This document shows, piece by piece, positions 6,872 to 20,604 of a DNA stretch of 23,952 nucleotides. Both the position numbers and the translations under genes were made by a program. The first letter of the stretch is position 1; each line of letters begins with the position of its first letter. Below the pieces are notes generated by a model. It saw nothing but the letters and a program-made list of their open reading frames with translations, did no database searches and had not been told where the DNA came from. Source of the DNA: a virus; the IMG/VR virus record IMGVR_UViG_3300025630_000055, positions 1 through 23,952 of that record; one strand, written 5' to 3'.

Positions 6872-8412
6872 GCCGTGAGGACCTCCAATTGCGTGACGCC
6901 GGCCTGGCGCTCGGCGTAGCCGGCGACCCGCGCGGCGACGCCGGCGGAAATGCCGTAGTCCGGATGCGCGAGCCATACCTCGTCGCCGATCGCGAGGACG
7001 CCGAACCCGACGTCGGTCTCGCAGGACCAGGCCGCCAGGTCGGCCAGGAGCGGGAGGAGGTCGTCTGCGATCGCCTCGGCATCGGCCTCCTCGTAACACC
7101 AGGTCGCGACCTCGAGCGGTTGCGCGCGCAAGTGAGCGGCCGCGATCGCGGACATGAGCGCGGCATCGGTCGGGAGCGCGACCAGGTTCGGCGTCGACCA
7201 GGTCAAGCGATCCGCCGCCGTGACACTGTCGGCGAGCTCGTCGGCGGCCTGGACCTGGCCGAGTATCCGGTATTGCGCGCGGATCTCGCTCGGCGGGATA
7301 CCGAGGCGGCGACGACCGAGCGAGCCCTCGGCGATCCGGTAATCGGTTATCACCGCCCGGACGACCGCGTCGGTCGAGGCGGTCGCGGTCGGCGCCTTGA
7401 ACACGCCGAGAGAGAACAGGCCGGCGCGCGTAAACACCCAATAGCCGCCGGCGCCGGCGATCAGCGCGTCGAGGATCTGGGCGATCGTCACGCTCGAGGT
7501 CCCGGTCGCGTAGCCGACCACGCCGGCGCGATCGGCCGCGAGCGCGGTAAAGGCCGCCGTGTCGAGCTCGGCAGGGTCCGCCAGCCCGGCATAGTCGGTA
7601 ACGATCAACCGAACCACGTCCGCCAGGTCGTCAGCCCAGGCGCCGCCCGGCGCCGCCCCCTTGACGTCGACCGTCACCGCGCCGACCGGCGAGTCGCCGA
7701 GGACGATCCGGCCGACCGAAAGGTCCGCGAAGTAGGACCCGGAGGGCGGCGGATTGGAGCCGCTCGAGGAGAGTGCTACGCCATTGTCCCGGACCGCGAG
7801 GATCGCCTCGATCGGCCCGTCGTGGATATCCAGGACCAGGTTCGCCGGGTCGACCATGATCGCCGGCGCGTTGTCGACCCGGCCGAAGACAAGCGGCCGA
7901 GGCCGGTTCTTGAGCTCGGCCGTCCCGTCCGTCCCGCCGGCCCCGCCATAGGTCGAGGTCTGGATCGGCCGGCGGAAGTCCTCGGCGCGGTCGTGAAACC
8001 GCAGGACCAGGCTCGACGGCCCGGCCTGGTCGAGATCGGCGACCGTCCCGGAGGCGACGACCTCGCGATCGGCGAACGCCGCCCCGGCCGCCAGGCGCTC
8101 GAGCGTGAAGGCGCGCCCGTCCCATGCGTAGCCGAGGAGGGCCGCCAAGGTCCCGTTATCGCGCCATTGCTGCGGGATACCGATCGAGACCGACCCGCTC
8201 CCCGGAAGCGACGGCCCGCCGAACGCCCCCGGCGCGAACGCTTGGCGCTCGCAGGCGTAGCCCTCGACAACCCCCTCGAAAGTCACGCTCGCCGGCGTGT
8301 CGGTCGGACCGGTCCGGTAATCCGAGGTCGCGAGATAGACCGGGACCGTATCGGCCTCGCCGAGATCGTATGGCTCGACCGTGAGGAGGAGGACGTCGAT
8401 CGCAGAGATCAT
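6868..8412 (-). CDS. Tail tip/hub-like structural protein
   Basis: A 514-residue protein directly after the tape measure, the usual place for distal tail and hub proteins. It starts with a beta-rich block (residues 18-75, including YLATSDYRTGPTDTPASVTF) typical of tail proteins that ring the tube end. The middle (about 160-330) is mixed; GGYWVFTRAGLFSLGVF (324-340) and LTWSTPNLVAL are further recognisable strand regions. The C-terminus has a hub-like WLAHPDYGI and repeats of short strands. I see no peptidase motif. Start ATG 8412 overlaps the tape measure stop (ATGA). Assignment to hub, distal tail or fused role is by position and is not certain. Confidence 0.75.
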   Translation of the reverse strand: MISAIDVLLLTVEPYDLGEADTVPVYLATSDYRTGPTDTPASVTFEGVVEGYACERQAFAPGAFGGPSLPGSGSVSIGIPQQWRDNGTLAALLGYAWDGRAFTLERLAAGAAFADREVVASGTVADLDQAGPSSLVLRFHDRAEDFRRPIQTSTYGGAGGTDGTAELKNRPRPLVFGRVDNAPAIMVDPANLVLDIHDGPIEAILAVRDNGVALSSSGSNPPPSGSYFADLSVGRIVLGDSPVGAVTVDVKGAAPGGAWADDLADVVRLIVTDYAGLADPAELDTAAFTALAADRAGVVGYATGTSSVTIAQILDALIAGAGGYWVFTRAGLFSLGVFKAPTATASTDAVVRAVITDYRIAEGSLGRRRLGIPPSEIRAQYRILGQVQAADELADSVTAADRLTWSTPNLVALPTDAALMSAIAAAHLRAQPLEVATWCYEEADAEAIADDLLPLLADLAAWSCETDVGFGVLAIGDEVWLAHPDYGISAGVAARVAGYAERQAGVTQLEVLTA

Positions 8413-11400
8413 GGCGTCACCGCCCGGAACGCGAACCCGGAGCCCTGGCGGCCGACCACCAGGCCCCGCAGGAAGCCGAGGAGGTCACGGGTCGCCGAGG
8501 TCGCGGCGCGTTGCCCGGCGACGAGCTCGGCCAGGAGCTCGGCCACGCCGGCGCCCCCGGCGGCCGCCTCCCGGAGAATGCTCGCGGTCTGGCTCGCGTT
8601 GTACACGCGCGACCGGCCCGTCGCCTCGAGCTCCGGCCCGCGCTCACCGACGATCCGCAGGCCGCCCGTATGATCGCCGCCCTCGGCATAGCCGGTTATC
8701 GAGCGGATCACCGCGTCGACGATCGGATCGGCCTGGCGCCTGGCCGCCGCCTGGCCTTCGCCGAAACCGGAGATCGGCTCGAGGCCGAGCGAGATAAGGC
8801 GCTCATTAATCGCCGCGTTGACCGCCGGGTCCCGGCCGAGATCGAACCCGGCCGCGTTCGTGTATTGCCCGTCGCCGAGGCGCCGGAGCCCGGCGACCGA
8901 GCTCGCGGCAGAGACCGCGCTCGAGGATCTCGGCGCGACCGCCTCGAGCGCGGTCGCGAGATCCTCGCGAATGCCCCGGAGCTCGTCGAGCGACGCCCGC
9001 GCGATCGCCAGGTCGTCGGCGAACGCATCCTCGAGACCGGCGAGCCCGGCGTCTACCTGGTTGTACAACGATTGATATTGCGGCCCGCTCGCGTAGACGT
9101 CGCGGCCGAGCTCGAGAACGGTACGCGCCAGGTCTCGGGCGCGGCCTGCGGCCTCCTCGTCGCCGCCGAGCCCGGCGGCCGACGCCTCGGAGAACAACCG
9201 GAGCGCCTCGTCGAGACTTGCGGTCGGCGAGAGCGGCGAGAGCGAGCGGTCGATCCGGAGGCCCTGGCGGGTCTGGCGGATCGAGGCGACCAACTGGTCG
9301 AGCGAGCGGGTCGAGCCCTCGAGGGCGGCGATCTCGTCGTCGCGGGCGGCGATCGCCTCGTTGATCCGAGCGGCCTCCTCCTGGCGCGCGGCGGCCGCGA
9401 CCTGGATCTCGAACAGCGTGTCGACGAGACCGAGATCGCCGCCGACCGCGACCGCCTGGTCGCGCAAACTTTCATAGTTGGTGACGAGCGCCTCGACGAC
9501 CTGCGAGGCCGGCGAGAGGAGAGACCGGATCTGCCCGGCCAGGTCCTCGTTAAAGCCCGTCCGCATGGTCTCGCGGAACGTGTCGCGCGCCTTGTCGAGC
9601 TTGTCGTCGACCTGGTCGGCCTCGAGACCGAGAGCCTCGACCGCGCCCCGGAGGTTGTCGATCGACGCGAGGCCGCTCTCGAGCTTGAGCTCGTAGCCCT
9701 CGAGCGGCGTGCTATCGACCGACGCCAGGCCGAGGAGCTCGTCGACATAGCGAGAGATCGCGTCCATTCCCTCGCTCATCAATGCCGGGTCGCCGAAGTC
9801 GCGGACGACCGGGCGATTGGCCGACGCCTGGACCTGGTCGGCGTACCGCTCGATTGCCTCGGCGGCGTCCCGCACGCCGGAGACGACCGCGCCGGTCGCC
9901 GCGTTGAAGAACTCGATAGTCTGCAACCCCTCGTCGCCGACCACTCGCCGGCGGAACGTCTGGCCGTCAATCGTGAAACCGCTCTCGCCGCCGTCGCGGC
10001 TGTCGTACTGGATACGCGCCGACGACGTGTCGATCCGAGCCGCCTCGCCCTCGCGGTCGACCGCCCCGAAATATCGCTCGAGGTTCGCGACGAAGTCTTC
10101 GACCGTCTTCTCCTGAGCGGCCCCGGCGTCCTCGGCCGAGCGGCCGAGCTCGTAAAGCTGCAACGCCGCCGCATCGCCGGCGCGAGACATCCGGGCGGTT
10201 GCGTCCTCGAAAGCGACCGCGAAGTCGAGCGCCTCGCCGACCGCCTCGGCGTCCGCCCCGCCATCACGCTCGAGGCGGCCGAGCACGGCCCGGAGGACCC
10301 CCTCGGTCGCCGTCGAGATCCCGTCGACGAGGCCGCGCTCGAGCGCGTCGAGGATCGAGCGATAGACGAAGTCGCCGACCGCCTCCTCGGCCGTGGCAAA
10401 GCGACGGAGATCCGGCGACCGCCCGCTCCGGCGATCGCCCTCGGTCAAGCCCGGCGAGGAGATCGCGCTCGCATACTCGCCGCTCTCATAGCCGACCTCG
10501 CCCCCGAAGGCCCCCGGCCGCAGGGTCGCCCCCAGGCTCTCGAGGAACTGATTGACGAAATCCGAGACGCCATCGGCGAGCTTCTGAGCGTCCTCGACCG
10601 CCGCGTTGTTATCGGCCCCGACCGCCCGCACGCCGAGCCGATCGTCGTCGACGTTGAAGGTCGCGCCGAGCGCCGGCCCGCTCGTCTTCCCCGGACCGAA
10701 TATCTGCGTTGCCAGGAGCGCCAGGCCGGCGACCGCGATCGCGATCGGCCCGGCCGCAGCCGCAAACCCGGCTTGCGCCAAGGCCCCGCTTGCGACCTGG
10801 CTCGCGACCGCGCCGCCGGCCCCGCCCGGACCCAGGCCGCCCGTGAGGAGCCCGGCGGGACCGAGGCCGGCCTGTACACCGAAGAACGACCCGAGAGCGT
10901 TCCCGAGGGAGGGCGCGATCTGAGCGAGCGAGCTCGTCAGCGTGTTCCCGAGGCCGGTAATCGAGGAGACCAGGTTCGACGCACCGCTCGACAAGAGCGA
11001 GCCGAGCGGGTTGCCGGAGAACAAGCCGTCGAGAAGGAAGTTGCTCCCTTGCGATATGCCGAGGTTCAACAGACCCCGGCCGAGGTCGCCGAACCCGCCG
11101 CCGACCCCGCCAGTCCCCGACGCGATCAGGTCGACCCCGGACCGCAGCAGGCCGGCGGCGTCGAACTGCGGGACCCGGACATTCGCCGCCGTGCGCGAGG
11201 CGTTGGCGACGGAGAGCTCGTAGGCGCGGACCGTCGAGATCGCGTCGGAATACACGCGCTCGGCCTGGCGGACCTTCTCGGCGTGCTGGTCCTGGCTCAG
11301 GACGCCGAGCTCGAGCGCCAGGTCGAGGTCGAGGAGCGTCTCGTTATAGGCGCGGGTCGCCGCCGACGTGCGGTCGGTCGCGTCCTCGAGGCGGACCAGG

Positions 11401-12902
11401 CGCTCGCGGAGGGTCCGTTTCTGGTCGGCCAGGCGCTCGACCGCCTCCGCCGCCGCCTCGTCGGCCTCTGTCGCCTTTTTGGTCGCCTTGGTCGACGCCT
11501 CGAGCTTCTCGATCTTCTCGTCATAGTGCCGATTGATCTCGGCCAGGGTCTCGACCCGAAGCTCCTCGCTCGCCTGCATGGTGTCGAGGAGGCGGGTCGC
11601 CTCGGCGATCTTCTCGGCGCGCTCGGCCTCGATCTTCGCCGCCTGGTCGAGCTCGCCCCGGAGCTCGGCCAAGGCCGCCCGCGCCCGATCGAAGCCGGCC
11701 GCGCCCGTGTCGCCAGCGAGCGCCAGGTCCCAATCGAACGCCGCCTCGGCCGCCTGGCGCGCCGCCTCGCCGAGCGCCTTGATCTCCTCGGCCAAGGCTC
11801 GCGCGGTCGAGGTCATGCGCGCGCGGATCGCCCCCGCGACCGCGTCGCCGGCGCGCGCGGCAGCACCCTCGGCGCTCTTGTCGAACGCCTCGAGGTCGGC
11901 CTCGACCCGCTCGAGCTCGGCGAGGAGCTCCTCGCGGCTCCGCCCCGCCGTCTCGGTCGCCTCGCCGAAATAGCGGGCGATCGCCTGGCCGAGCTCGGAA
12001 TGCTCCGAACCAATAAACCGGACCTTGGCGAAGAAATCGGCCAGCGCCTCCGACGCCTCGGCGGCGATCGGCGCCAGGCGCAACAGAACGCGGTTGACAT
12101 TCATTTCGACAACCCGCCCGAACGTGTCGAGCGCGTCGCGCGCCCGCTCGGCGTCGCGGACCACTTGCTCGTCAAGCACCAGGCCGAGCTCGGCGGCACG
12201 GTCGCGGAGGTCCTGGACAGCCTCGGCCCCCTTGCCGAACAGATTGACCAAGCCCGCGCCCTCCTGGTCGAACGCCTTGACGGCGATCCGAAGGCGCTCG
12301 GCCTCGTCGGTCGTCGACGCCATGACGTCGGCCAGGTCCGCCAAGACGTCGAGGTTGTCGCGCGTCGAGCCGTCGGCGTTGCGGAGCGAGATCCCGTATT
12401 GCTCGAGCGTGCCCTTGAGCTCGCCGGTCCCCTGGACCGCCTCGGCCATCCGCCGCGTAAACCGCTGAATGCCGGTATCGAGGTTGTTCGCGGCGACGCC
12501 GGACCGCTCGGCCGCGAAACGGAGCTCTTGAAGCGCCGAGGTCGAGACACCGATCCGGTCGGCGAACTTGCCAAGCTGGTCGGCTTGCGTAACCGCCTGG
12601 TTGAACTGGCGGAAGGCGACGACGGCGCCGCCGATACCGGCCGCCGCCGCCAGGCCGGCCGGACCGAGCGCCGAGAGCACCGGCGCCAGCGCCCCGGCGC
12701 GGCTCGCGAAACCGTCGATCCGGCCGCGGACCTGGCCGACCGCCGCCGAGAGCGTCAACAGCCCCCGGCTTGCCGGCCTGGTGGCGTTCTCGATCGACTG
12801 GACAGCGGTCCGGCCGCGCGACCCGAAACGCTCGAGCGCCTGTACCGCGACGTCGGCGTCCTTGACCGAGAGCCGGATCAATAGGGAGCGTTCACCCGCC
12901 AC
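8409..12902 (-). CDS. Tail tape measure protein
   Basis: At 1497 residues this is the longest gene. It follows the frameshifting chaperone gene and has tape-measure architecture: an N-terminal helical region with GRTAVQSIENA, long Ala/Glu-rich coiled coils (about 300-540), a Gly/Leu-rich hydrophobic centre, one membrane-like segment near 718-737 (GPIAIAVAGLALLATQIFG), and the conserved C-terminal motif GYAEGGDHTGG followed by GERGPELEA. It sets tail length and is thought to help DNA cross the inner membrane. By the usual rule of about 0.15 nm per residue, the tail would be near 220 nm. The start is GTG 12902, overlapping the chaperone stop by 11 bases; a GGGAG lies about ten bases upstream. 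No peptidoglycan hydrolase motif is visible. Confidence 0.95.
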   Translation of the reverse strand: MAGERSLLIRLSVKDADVAVQALERFGSRGRTAVQSIENATRPASRGLLTLSAAVGQVRGRIDGFASRAGALAPVLSALGPAGLAAAAGIGGAVVAFRQFNQAVTQADQLGKFADRIGVSTSALQELRFAAERSGVAANNLDTGIQRFTRRMAEAVQGTGELKGTLEQYGISLRNADGSTRDNLDVLADLADVMASTTDEAERLRIAVKAFDQEGAGLVNLFGKGAEAVQDLRDRAAELGLVLDEQVVRDAERARDALDTFGRVVEMNVNRVLLRLAPIAAEASEALADFFAKVRFIGSEHSELGQAIARYFGEATETAGRSREELLAELERVEADLEAFDKSAEGAAARAGDAVAGAIRARMTSTARALAEEIKALGEAARQAAEAAFDWDLALAGDTGAAGFDRARAALAELRGELDQAAKIEAERAEKIAEATRLLDTMQASEELRVETLAEINRHYDEKIEKLEASTKATKKATEADEAAAEAVERLADQKRTLRERLVRLEDATDRTSAATRAYNETLLDLDLALELGVLSQDQHAEKVRQAERVYSDAISTVRAYELSVANASRTAANVRVPQFDAAGLLRSGVDLIASGTGGVGGGFGDLGRGLLNLGISQGSNFLLDGLFSGNPLGSLLSSGASNLVSSITGLGNTLTSSLAQIAPSLGNALGSFFGVQAGLGPAGLLTGGLGPGGAGGAVASQVASGALAQAGFAAAAGPIAIAVAGLALLATQIFGPGKTSGPALGATFNVDDDRLGVRAVGADNNAAVEDAQKLADGVSDFVNQFLESLGATLRPGAFGGEVGYESGEYASAISSPGLTEGDRRSGRSPDLRRFATAEEAVGDFVYRSILDALERGLVDGISTATEGVLRAVLGRLERDGGADAEAVGEALDFAVAFEDATARMSRAGDAAALQLYELGRSAEDAGAAQEKTVEDFVANLERYFGAVDREGEAARIDTSSARIQYDSRDGGESGFTIDGQTFRRRVVGDEGLQTIEFFNAATGAVVSGVRDAAEAIERYADQVQASANRPVVRDFGDPALMSEGMDAISRYVDELLGLASVDSTPLEGYELKLESGLASIDNLRGAVEALGLEADQVDDKLDKARDTFRETMRTGFNEDLAGQIRSLLSPASQVVEALVTNYESLRDQAVAVGGDLGLVDTLFEIQVAAAARQEEAARINEAIAARDDEIAALEGSTRSLDQLVASIRQTRQGLRIDRSLSPLSPTASLDEALRLFSEASAAGLGGDEEAAGRARDLARTVLELGRDVYASGPQYQSLYNQVDAGLAGLEDAFADDLAIARASLDELRGIREDLATALEAVAPRSSSAVSAASSVAGLRRLGDGQYTNAAGFDLGRDPAVNAAINERLISLGLEPISGFGEGQAAARRQADPIVDAVIRSITGYAEGGDHTGGLRIVGERGPELEATGRSRVYNASQTASILREAAAGGAGVAELLAELVAGQRAATSATRDLLGFLRGLVVGRQGSGFAFRAVTP

Positions 12903-17077: not shown

Positions 17078-19057
17078 TCAGGTCGTAAGCATGTCCTGCA
17101 TCGCCGAGAACGAGGCGACATGACGGGCGCCGACGTCGACGTCCTGGAAGGCGCGGACGACCAGGCCGCCGCGATCGCCGAGCGTGAACGGGTCCGTGGT
17201 CATGTCGACGACCCCCCACTCGCCAATTACCAGATCGGACCAGTTGCCGAAGATCGCCGCCGAGCACACCGCACCCGACGTGCCCTTGACGAGATTCGAC
17301 GGGACCTGGCTCGAGGCGTAGGCCGAATACCCGTTGACCTCGCCGACGCCCGGCATACCGGCCATGTTGCCCCACACCATGCGTTGATCGGTCCCGACAA
17401 CGGTCGTCTTAAGCTTGCCGCGCGCCGCCGGCGTCGTCAGGTACGCGAGCGTACCCTCGTCGGCATTGGCGACCGCGACGTCGGTCTCGAGCTCGACCAT
17501 ATGCGCATAGGTCGGCGCCGAGCCATTCGTACCGCCGGCAACGTCGCCGATGCCGGTCATGTTTAACAGGCCCTCCGGCTCGCCGCCGGAGCCCGCCCCG
17601 TTGATCGCCGCCGCGTCGATCGCCCGCGCGATGACCTCGACGAGATCGTTGCGGACCATCGCCTCGGCGTCCGGCGAGGACTGGATCAGCAGCCGCCGCG
17701 AGAGGTCGACCCGGCCGGCGACCGTGTTCGGCGAGAGCGTCAACTGTGCCGTCGTCGGCGTGCTCTCGGTCACGTCGGTTGCCTCGGTAGCGAGCCAGTA
17801 GGCGGTTGCACCGGCGGCGAGCTTGGGAATATCGACGTCGCCCACCAGGCCGGAGAGCACGCGGGCGCCGAGCCGGCGGACCATCATGCGCGACCGAAGC
17901 GCGTCGATGAACGAGCCGGCCAGGTGATCGGTCCCGACCATTTCGGCGCCGGTCCCGGCACCGCCGGCGGTCAGGTCACGCGAGGCGCCCGCCCCCGGCA
18001 GGACCCGGAAACCGGCCGACCGCATGACGTCGTATGGCAGGAAGAACCCGCGCGCCTCGCGGCCGGTCGAGCGGCGGATCTGGTCGGCGACCGCCTCGAT
18101 CGCGTCGCGCTCGAGCTCGGCCCCCCGCCAGTCCCGCGCGGCGTGCGCCCGGAGCGCCCGGAACAGCGAGAACGAAGCGACCTCACGGTCCGTCATGCCG
18201 ATCTGGCTCGCCGGGACCTCGATCTCGGCACCGTCGCCGAGCGCCTCGAGGAGCACGCCCCGGAAAGCCGCCAGGGTCTCGCCGCGCGCGATCGCCGCGT
18301 CGGCCAGGTCGCGGCGGTTGAGCCGCACGCCGAGGGCGAGGATCTCGCCGACCTCGGCATTGCGGGCGGCGATCGCGTCCGCGACCGAACGATCGCCGGC
18401 CGCCGCCGTGGTGGTGGTGGTAGTCGTGGTCTGCCCGGCCATCGCCGCGCCCTCCTCTCGGTTGCTGTCGTCGTCAGTCTCGGCGCCGGCGTCACCGGAG
18501 CCGCTAGTCTCGTCGGCCGGAAGCCCCAGGACGGGGACCTCCGGGACGCCCTGGTCGCCCGACCGCCCGATCCCGACCGTGACATCGGCCGGGACGGAGA
18601 CGATCGAGACCTCGATCGGCGACCACCGGGTCGCGCGATAGATCACCACCTCGTCGGCCTCGCTCTCGAGGCGGATTTCGTGGAAGCGGAAATTCAGCGA
18701 GACGCCGGTCCGGATACCGTCGACGACGTCGCGAAAGACCTCCTCGCCGAGCGGCGAGCGGGAGAACCTGGCGACCGCCCGGCCGACCCCGCCGGCGATC
18801 CTCACGCTCTCGATCCGGCCGATCTGGCGGGTCCGGTCATGGTCGAGGAGGAGCGGCAGGACCCCGCGCTCGAACCGCTCGAGATCGATTTCGCCGTCGC
18901 CGTGGCCGAGGATCACGAACTCGCCCGGCCAGTCCTCGACCGGCGTCTCGCTCGAGAACGCGAGCTCGACCGTCCGCGCCTCCTCCTCGATCGTCTCGCG
19001 CGTGAAACTCGCCGCGCGAGACCCGACTCCCGGAAGGGTCTGCCTAATGGTGCTCAT
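17078..19057 (-). CDS. Prohead protease-major capsid fusion (HK97 type)
   Basis: One 659-residue frame covers two virion proteins. Residues 1-165 are an HK97-like prohead protease: LLLDHDRTRQIGRI carries His73, TGVSLNF carries Ser120, and RWSPIEVSIVSVPAD carries Glu149, a plausible His-Ser-Glu set. Residues 165-222 are a low-complexity linker with eight consecutive Thr. About 225-300 resemble the helical delta/scaffold region (SVADAIAARNAEVGEILALG). The capsid body follows (about 330-659), with FLPYDVMRSAGFRVLPGAG, RMMVRRLGARV and GEPEGLLNM. The protease would cut the scaffold after assembly. The start ATG overlaps the portal stop (ATGA). An internal start at 18442 could make capsid alone. 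Protease and capsid are separate genes in HK97 itself; fusion occurs in some relatives. Confidence 0.9.
   Translation of the reverse strand: MSTIRQTLPGVGSRAASFTRETIEEEARTVELAFSSETPVEDWPGEFVILGHGDGEIDLERFERGVLPLLLDHDRTRQIGRIESVRIAGGVGRAVARFSRSPLGEEVFRDVVDGIRTGVSLNFRFHEIRLESEADEVVIYRATRWSPIEVSIVSVPADVTVGIGRSGDQGVPEVPVLGLPADETSGSGDAGAETDDDSNREEGAAMAGQTTTTTTTTAAAGDRSVADAIAARNAEVGEILALGVRLNRRDLADAAIARGETLAAFRGVLLEALGDGAEIEVPASQIGMTDREVASFSLFRALRAHAARDWRGAELERDAIEAVADQIRRSTGREARGFFLPYDVMRSAGFRVLPGAGASRDLTAGGAGTGAEMVGTDHLAGSFIDALRSRMMVRRLGARVLSGLVGDVDIPKLAAGATAYWLATEATDVTESTPTTAQLTLSPNTVAGRVDLSRRLLIQSSPDAEAMVRNDLVEVIARAIDAAAINGAGSGGEPEGLLNMTGIGDVAGGTNGSAPTYAHMVELETDVAVANADEGTLAYLTTPAARGKLKTTVVGTDQRMVWGNMAGMPGVGEVNGYSAYASSQVPSNLVKGTSGAVCSAAIFGNWSDLVIGEWGVVDMTTDPFTLGDRGGLVVRAFQDVDVGARHVASFSAMQDMLTT
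18442..18456 (-). promoter_or_regulatory. Internal ribosome site and ATG for capsid part
   Basis: Inside the fusion, AGGAGG (18451-18456 on the minus strand) stands eight bases before an in-frame ATG (18440-18442, Met206). This would give a 454-residue product that starts MAGQTTTTTT and lacks the protease. Position at the linker between domains argues that it is used. Many more capsid than protease copies are needed per head, which the second start would supply. Confidence 0.65.
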
Positions 19058-20604
19058 TGCCCTTTGTCCTCCTCAGTTGCGGCCGCGACCGCGACCAGGT
19101 CGACGGAGGCCGGCTGATATCGGCGCGGCCCGCCCTCCTCCTCGGCGAGCTCGGCGGCGATCTCGGCAAAGTCGGCGCCGCGCTCCTCGGCGACCCGTTG
19201 CCGCGAAGTGAGGCCGAGCTCGATCTCTTTCTCCTTAGCGGCGATCTCCTTGAGCGGGTCCACCCACGCCCAGCCTCGCGGCATGAACACCCGCGAGACG
19301 CGGGCGAGGTCCGCCGTCTTAAGCGGCAGGCGCCCCGCCAGGCTCGCGGCCTCGAGCCAGGCGCCGACCAGGTCGTCGAGGCCCTCGATAACGAGCGCCT
19401 GGAAATCCGCCCATTGGTCGCGGTCGCCGAGGACGCCTTGACGGATCGACGAGTAGTTGACGCCCTCGAGGTCGCCGGCAAACTCGGCATAGGAGACGCC
19501 GAGGCCGGCGGCCGCGCCGCGCAACATGGTTTTCGTGAACGCCGGATATTGCGACGTCGGGTGTTGCGGATCGAACGGAGTGAATTGCGCGCCATCCGGC
19601 AGGATGCCGAACTCGCCCGGCTGCACGCTGAAAACGAGGTCGCCGTCGCGGTTGCGAGCACCGGCCGCCGGCCCGCCCTCGCCCTCGAGATCGGCCTCCT
19701 CGCCGCCCCACTCCTCCGGCACGCCGCCGGTAAAGAAACCCATTTTCGACGCCGCCGTCCGGGCGGCCACGAGCTCGGCTTGTTCATACTCGCCGAACTG
19801 CCGCAGCCGCTTGCCGGTCGGATTAAACCAGGGAACCCCCCGGACCTGGCCCGGCTCCTCCTGGTCGAAGATATGGACGATCCCGGAGGCCGGGACCCGG
19901 ACCCGGCGGCGAACGCTCGCGGGCGCGACCGGCGCATCCGGATGCGCGACCAGCAGGTAATAAGCGACCGGCCGAGACCGACCGTCGATCTCCACCCCCA
20001 TAATCACCCGGTTCCCGTCCTCGAGCCGGCGCGTGTATTCAGCGTCAAGAAGGACCGGGTCGATCGGTTGTACAGCGAACCCCCACGGCCCGGCCTCGCG
20101 CCCGAAAACCTTGCGCGCGAGGAACTCACCGTCGCGGACCAGGCCGACGACGATCGCGCGTTGCAGCCCGCGCCAGGAGAGCAGGCCGTCGAGCGTGACG
20201 CCGCCGCCGGCGAGGCCGCGTTTCGACCAGGCCGCGAACTCGGCCGCCAGGACCGCGAGGACCTGGTCGTCGAGCCCGACGAACCGGGTCCGGATGCCGG
20301 CGCGGCCGAGCACGCCGGCGCGAACCCGTTTCAGGAAGCCGCGCGCATAGTCCTCGTTCCGCGCCAGGTCGCGCGAGCGCGCCTGCATCACCCGCAGGCC
20401 GTCTCGCAGGACCGCGTTCGGATCGCGGTTGACGGTCGTCCAATTAGCCCAGGCGTTCGAAGCACCCGCCATCTGGTAGGACCGCAGGCCGAGGCCGCGA
20501 CCGACCGCGACCGCCGGCGAGGTATTCAGGACCGCCGAGATCACCCGCGCGAGCACGCCGGGCCCCGACGCCTCCGGCCGGCGGCCGTTGCCCGCCCGCG
20601 CCAT
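19054..20604 (-). CDS. Portal protein, lambda family
   Basis: The 516-residue length and sequence fit the lambda gpB portal family. The portal is the twelve-fold ring at one capsid vertex through which DNA is packed and ejected. Recognisable parts are the start region SYQMAGASNAWANWTTVNRD, the helix ARNEDYARGFLKRVRAGVLG, GIVHIFDQEEPGQVRGVPWF (about 242-261), and LGVSYAEFAGDLEGVNYSSI, a highly typical portal motif near 370. The C-terminal 60 residues are Ala/Glu-rich. ATG 20604 forms a TAATG junction with the previous stop and the end overlaps the protease-capsid ATG (ATGA). I am confident of the family. Confidence 0.95.
   Translation of the reverse strand: MARAGNGRRPEASGPGVLARVISAVLNTSPAVAVGRGLGLRSYQMAGASNAWANWTTVNRDPNAVLRDGLRVMQARSRDLARNEDYARGFLKRVRAGVLGRAGIRTRFVGLDDQVLAVLAAEFAAWSKRGLAGGGVTLDGLLSWRGLQRAIVVGLVRDGEFLARKVFGREAGPWGFAVQPIDPVLLDAEYTRRLEDGNRVIMGVEIDGRSRPVAYYLLVAHPDAPVAPASVRRRVRVPASGIVHIFDQEEPGQVRGVPWFNPTGKRLRQFGEYEQAELVAARTAASKMGFFTGGVPEEWGGEEADLEGEGGPAAGARNRDGDLVFSVQPGEFGILPDGAQFTPFDPQHPTSQYPAFTKTMLRGAAAGLGVSYAEFAGDLEGVNYSSIRQGVLGDRDQWADFQALVIEGLDDLVGAWLEAASLAGRLPLKTADLARVSRVFMPRGWAWVDPLKEIAAKEKEIELGLTSRQRVAEERGADFAEIAAELAEEEGGPRRYQPASVDLVAVAAATEEDKGQ

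Follow-up and report, generated by a model that had tools for sequence, protein, structure and literature searches.

We propose that the protease-capsid fusion gene of a viral DNA stretch is a dual-start gene, from which both a protease-scaffold-capsid fusion and a shorter scaffold-capsid precursor would be made; we hold this reading with high confidence. The stretch, hereafter the window, is 23,952 nucleotides long and covers positions 1 to 23,952 of IMG/VR virus record IMGVR_UViG_3300025630_000055. The fusion genes of relatives, likewise, very probably make two proteins and not one long precursor only. What the analysis shows directly are the sequence signals, their conservation, a codon and mRNA signature, the place where the domains meet, and how long the processed protein is in one relative of solved structure.

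The fusion gene lies on the minus strand (17078..19057) and consists of one open frame of 659 codons without a stop, which encodes a prohead protease (S78), a delta-like scaffold and an HK97-fold major capsid protein. Peptidase_S78 (PF04586, 27.0 bits for a cut-off of 21) and Phage_capsid (PF05065, 118.4 bits for a cut-off of 24.2) matched in the same frame, placing the gene in the class that joins S78 and an HK97-type capsid in one frame. It also belongs to the phrog_617 fusions by a full-length match to the phrog_617 "major head protein" profile (E 8.1e-141, residues 14-655 on profile positions 11-623 of 626). Upstream lie a terminase gene and, directly before the fusion, a lambda-type portal gene (19054..20604, minus strand; PF05136 E 8e-88; TIGR01539). 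The fusion's own start is composed of an AGGAGG, a 10-base spacer and an ATG sharing bases with the stop of the portal gene in an ATGA (19055..19073, minus strand; duplex -12.1 kcal/mol). The fusion gene of a twin contig, L001, shows no difference from that of the window. Incidentally, the minus strand of the window also carries a likely tape measure gene of 1497 codons (8409-12902), opposite which the plus strand has a 1457-codon open frame (8511-12884), probably a GC-rich mirror frame.

An AlphaFold model of the window fusion (mean pLDDT 80.5) delimited the domains, all on the minus strand. The protease domain spans residues 10-153 (18599..19030), and its H73 and S120 were invariant in an alignment of 61 relatives. 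It is followed by a disordered linker at residues 158-221 (18395..18586; pLDDT <50 at 158-175 and 178-221), then by a helical, delta-like scaffold domain at residues 222-347 (18017..18394; helices from 222-245 to 342-347). A second disordered stretch at 349-380 precedes the HK97 fold, which extends to residue 659. In a structure search, the capsid part of the model matched the solved capsid of Dinoroseobacter phage R4C (8gta); the capsid domain outweighed the rest of the protein in such searches, which were thus uninformative on the protease fold.

Within the linker, the minus strand reads ...CCGAGAGGAGGGCGCGGCGATGGCCGGGCAG... and contains a Shine-Dalgarno (SD) sequence, AGGAGG (18451..18456), separated by 8 bases from an in-frame ATG at codon 206 of 659 (18440..18442), whose place is kept in relatives. 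The predicted duplex of this SD with the 16S tail amounts to -12.5 kcal/mol. The frame opened by this ATG takes in the scaffold and capsid parts and ends with the stop at 17078, giving a nested frame (17078..18442, minus strand) for a 454-residue scaffold and capsid precursor of 47.0 kDa. Met206 sits inside the disordered linker of the model, 16 residues N-terminal of the scaffold helices. The original prediction had called an AGGAGG eight bases before an in-frame ATG, a 659-residue fusion and a 454-residue nested product, and had placed the site in a low-complexity linker; the coordinates were confirmed, and the linker corresponds to the segment modelled as disordered. It had also taken the nested product to be the capsid protein: the length of 454 residues stands, but the product would be a scaffold-capsid precursor and not the mature capsid.

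The arrangement AGGAGG-N5-10-ATG was found 7 times in the window, as compared with 0.35 expected in shuffles. Six of the seven sites are on the minus strand; five open ORFs, as judged by position (ATG 4365, 5988, 15112, 15349 and 19057), and the sixth is the internal start of the fusion. The residues preceding Met206 are R-E-E-G-A-A, and GAG accounts for 44 of the 47 Glu codons of the gene. When these codons were recoded synonymously with the gene's own codon use, 48% of the draws scored at least as well as the native SD. Hence, the Glu-Glu pair and the GAG bias nearly force the SD, which taken alone in the window is no independent sign of selection. A judgement from the window alone was rejected for this reason and, the evidence there being only moderate, we took the question to relatives.

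Scanning viral contigs with the single protein returned only the identical twin L001, and we therefore used alignments. A first set of 184 fusion ORFs comprised the window, L001, 22 phage genomes and 160 viral or bacterial contig loci. The contig loci were collected by a protease motif, the linker playing no part in the selection, while the phage loci represent 22 of 101 matching records. L002, which repeats the window gene, contributed no ORF to the set. Relatives were assigned to phrog_617 by tblastn, and the profile itself was scanned for the window, L007, L019, L230, L245 and L317. At <70% identity, the first set yielded 117 representatives. We scored as linker a span of 60 codons, beginning where the conserved protease residues end, and counted an SD when its duplex reached -5 kcal/mol or lower.

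An in-frame linker ATG was present in 183 of the 184 ORFs (116/117 representatives), including all 22 phage relatives, and was accompanied by an SD in 155 (98/117 representatives). In the control frames of the 117 representatives, ATG plus SD occurred 9 times in frame +1 and never in frame +2; eight further 60-codon stretches read in frame elsewhere in these ORFs gave 9-23 out of 117. The sole representative lacking a linker ATG, L180, has a GTG after AAGGAG. The best linker ATG was taken for each representative, which introduces a slight bias towards signal; it was the first ATG in 107 of 116 cases. A second set of 38 fused ORFs, selected by a capsid motif after excluding 30 ORFs of the first set, behaved similarly, with a linker ATG in 37 (L216 being without), ATG plus SD in 29, and 7 and 0 in the other frames. 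At the threshold used, linker ATG plus SD was absent from 19/117 representatives and 9/38 ORFs of the second set; Synechococcus phages L015 and L019 are among those without. The fusions are mostly 34-49% identical to the window protein, and residues around the linker ATG vary freely. Loss of the site in relatives had been proposed as a check of the original prediction; once run, this check showed a site kept almost universally. It is this conservation, read from the sequences of relatives and not from the window, that decides in favour of a nested start.

As a further control, we recoded the six codons upstream of the linker ATG synonymously with each gene's own codon use, in 100 shuffles. The mean SD duplex was -6.80 kcal/mol as observed and -4.41 under the recoded null, and 98 of 116 sites reached -5 kcal/mol or lower, as compared with a mean of 52.8 and a maximum of 62 in the shuffles. 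The Wilcoxon test gave p ~1e-15, a value that overstates independence because the representatives are still kin. At 1492 control ATGs of the same genes, there was no SD gain over recoding. Folding pointed the same way: the 60 bases around the linker start fold at a mean of -7.2 kcal/mol as against -15.9 at other ATGs, and more weakly than at other ATGs in 114 of 116 cases. Stretches shifted by 60-90 bases to either side fold at -14.8 to -17.8 kcal/mol, the linker start being weaker in 106-111 of 116. Linker GC is 46%, as compared with 57-59%, and this lower GC explains the weak folding in part. Collectively, the synonymous-codon and mRNA-folding controls point to a start.

We then considered another family of fusions, NF045541, with 23 ORFs read from Pseudomonadota genomes (L317-L336, L339, L303 and L307). 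An ATG stood at one linker column in 23/23, no other ATG column of the alignment being kept as well, and had an SD in 21; the exceptions were L339, which has an SD-bearing ATG nearby, and L334, whose SD is weak. The window protein scored 153.5 bits against NF045541 (scaf_prot_MCP2), for a cut-off of 525, and matched over residues 24-286 alone; from this partial match, it is a relative of the family by its protease part and not a member.

These data bear on the view that the gene yields nothing but the full fusion, a single propeptide processed by the protease it contains, and that the ATG and the purines are incidental to a Glu/Lys-rich linker. The accessible parts of two papers do describe such genes in this way (PMC8508860, PMC10892653), and the window SD, as seen above, follows from Glu-Glu and its GAG codons. 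However, the enrichment of ATG plus SD is specific to one frame, the synonymous-codon signal is absent from control ATGs, L180 keeps its SD with GTG replacing ATG, and the second family maintains the ATG in a single linker column. We consider this view very improbable, if marginally less so than the two other readings that dispense with a second start.

Unfused relatives were also found. Among 78 loci collected by capsid motif (L209-L286), 72 have an S78 protease in frame, 1 (L230) a ClpP-like protease, 2 (L236 and L245) are unfused and 3 are cut by a contig end. In L236 and L245, the capsid gene follows directly after the protease gene and carries its own SD and ATG at the matching place. This speaks for a nested start in the fusions, and is also what one would expect if the nested site were a fossil, that is, an old capsid start left unused after loss of the stop codon between protease and capsid genes. 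An unused start would decay, yet the site survives among widely diverged fusions whose linker residues change freely, and we regard a fossil as very unlikely. Another candidate unfused relative, L191 (examined in detail among L185-L208), has its protease gene downstream and was discarded as offering no support. Equally hard to credit is an SD-like stretch acting as a translational pause, allowing the protease to fold before the scaffold is made, with the ATG unused: the site does fall exactly at the modelled domain boundary, but a pause does not need an ATG, the ATG is better kept than the SD (116 vs 98 of 117), and the poorly structured region is as expected of a start.

A used nested start thus remained our preferred reading, and we asked how far it extends to fusions with a ClpP-type protease (NF045540, phrog_133). 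We read 14 of these, the NF045540 loci being L287-L293 and L230. In 11 of the 14, including Gifsy-2, Fels-1, F10 and MD8, a Met with an upstream SD-like sequence was found at the protease-scaffold joint. This Met sits in a conserved peptide, F..MP, in all 11, so its conservation may serve the protein, which makes for weaker support; moreover, the 14 include several sequences that hardly differ (F10 and MD8, L287 and mEp043). We accordingly downgraded the ClpP-type families, at first entertained as equal support. L230, L292 and L293 are without the joint Met and have another linker ATG with SD, in keeping with a nested start, but these are few cases. Homology of S78-type to ClpP-type fusions begins at about the joint, L317 matching the ClpP-type model from residue 225, which is its nested Met. 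L230 combines a ClpP-like protease with a phrog_617-type capsid (L230:1598-3736) and has AAGGAGG before its linker ATG. Incidentally, we noticed that the predicted nested product of L230 begins with a zinc-ribbon-like CxxC pair (MNKCKHCGAVLDEAGACPVC).

We then considered what becomes of the capsid part. The solved R4C chain (8gta) starts at residue 362 of a 629-residue fusion, a position that may be either the cleavage point or the first deposited residue. By alignment to R4C, the mature capsid protein of the window should start near residue 370 and extend to residue 659 (17081..17950, minus strand), with a mass of about 29.9 kDa. According to the accessible part of the R4C paper, the shell has T=7 geometry and contains 415 copies of the capsid protein; a protease is not mentioned there (PMC10276861). 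Relative SD strength was compared in 17 of 23 ORFs (without L007, L013, L018, L019, L020 and L024, which the alignment covers): the internal SD exceeded that of the upstream start in 10 ORFs, matched it in 1 and fell short of it in 6. SD strength was therefore rejected as proof that the short form dominates. An excess of the short form is likely from the need for 415 shell copies, SD strength giving no basis for it, and an abundant capsid product together with few proteases appears plausible.

Taken together, the dual-start reading can be laid out as follows. Coupled to the portal stop, initiation at ATG 19057 would give the 659-residue protease-scaffold-capsid fusion, and initiation at ATG 18442, from its own SD, would give the 454-residue scaffold-capsid precursor. 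Having scaffold and capsid parts in common, the two products could co-assemble, the fusion bringing protease into the prohead and the short form, presumably in excess, providing most shell subunits. The protease would then cut off linker and scaffold to leave a capsid protein of about 290 residues. In a broader version, which we favour with appreciably more reserve, the protease-scaffold-capsid "propeptide" genes of tailed phages would in general be dual-start genes. The joint start would be under selection in two or more lineages of capsid (phrog_617 and NF045541/NF045540), and would serve two unrelated protease folds (S78 and ClpP-like). It would mark the point where one protease module can replace another before an unchanged scaffold-capsid gene, the fusion setting protease dosage and carrying protease into the prohead.

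The window gene has the domain order and family of the phrog_617 fusions of Vibrio phage VP882, Halomonas phage phiHAP-1, E. coli phage vB_EcoM-ep3, Rhodobacter phage RcCronus and Dinoroseobacter phage R4C. The phrog_617 phage records give one product per gene, two adjacent capsid frames in the case of Roseobacter phage CRP-823, and a nested capsid start is annotated in none of them. In CRP-823 (L024:1935-4863), the fusion region is annotated as a pair of neighbouring "major capsid protein" frames; its relative CRP-821 differs in this, and the cause is perhaps a frameshift upstream of the protease. We also noticed that L007:2302-4749 and L019:2278-4785 have some 200 extra residues before the protease, similar to phrog_2859, of unknown function, and that the annotated CDSs of L013, L017 and L020 are likewise longer than usual. 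The ClpP-type tripartite genes (Gifsy-2, Fels-1, F10 and MD8) hold protease, scaffold and capsid in one frame, as in the window, with a protease fold unrelated to its S78.

Single-gene protease-scaffold-capsid fusions are already known, as the accessible parts of several papers attest (PMC8508860, PMC10892653, PMC9855967, PMC8601537), the first three of which refer there to one gene or one propeptide. The accessible text of PMC8508860 nowhere uses the word "internal". In the open literature searched, subscription journals being mostly outside the search, we found no paper that deals with internal initiation in a protease-capsid fusion. A structural study of 2010 reportedly described the Gifsy-2 gene as a tripartite capsid gene, and may already describe a nested start. 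The logic would be that of lambda C/Nu3, extended in that the nested product includes the capsid.

In HK97, an S78-type protease (gp4) is followed by a scaffold-bearing capsid protein (gp5), encoded by two separate genes; the window has the same succession, but in one frame with two putative starts. In lambda, the protease gene C contains an in-frame nested start for the scaffold Nu3, a shorter product with a common C-terminus. The window likewise has, behind the protease, a putative further start that lies in the same frame and carries an SD of its own, and a common C-terminus. The lambda protease, however, is of another family, and Nu3 consists of scaffold alone, the capsid protein E being encoded elsewhere, whereas the nested product of the window would be scaffold plus capsid. 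The comparison with C/Nu3 drawn in the original prediction is therefore apt as logic and not as homology. Should the nested start be in use, a large group of phages would have the N-terminus of its capsid protein wrongly annotated, and there would be a simple explanation for how these phages escape making a protease with every capsid subunit. It would also be a third use of the trick of nesting an in-frame start behind a protease, beside lambda, with its scaffold-only nesting, and the herpesviruses, whose protease-scaffold gene relies on it as well.
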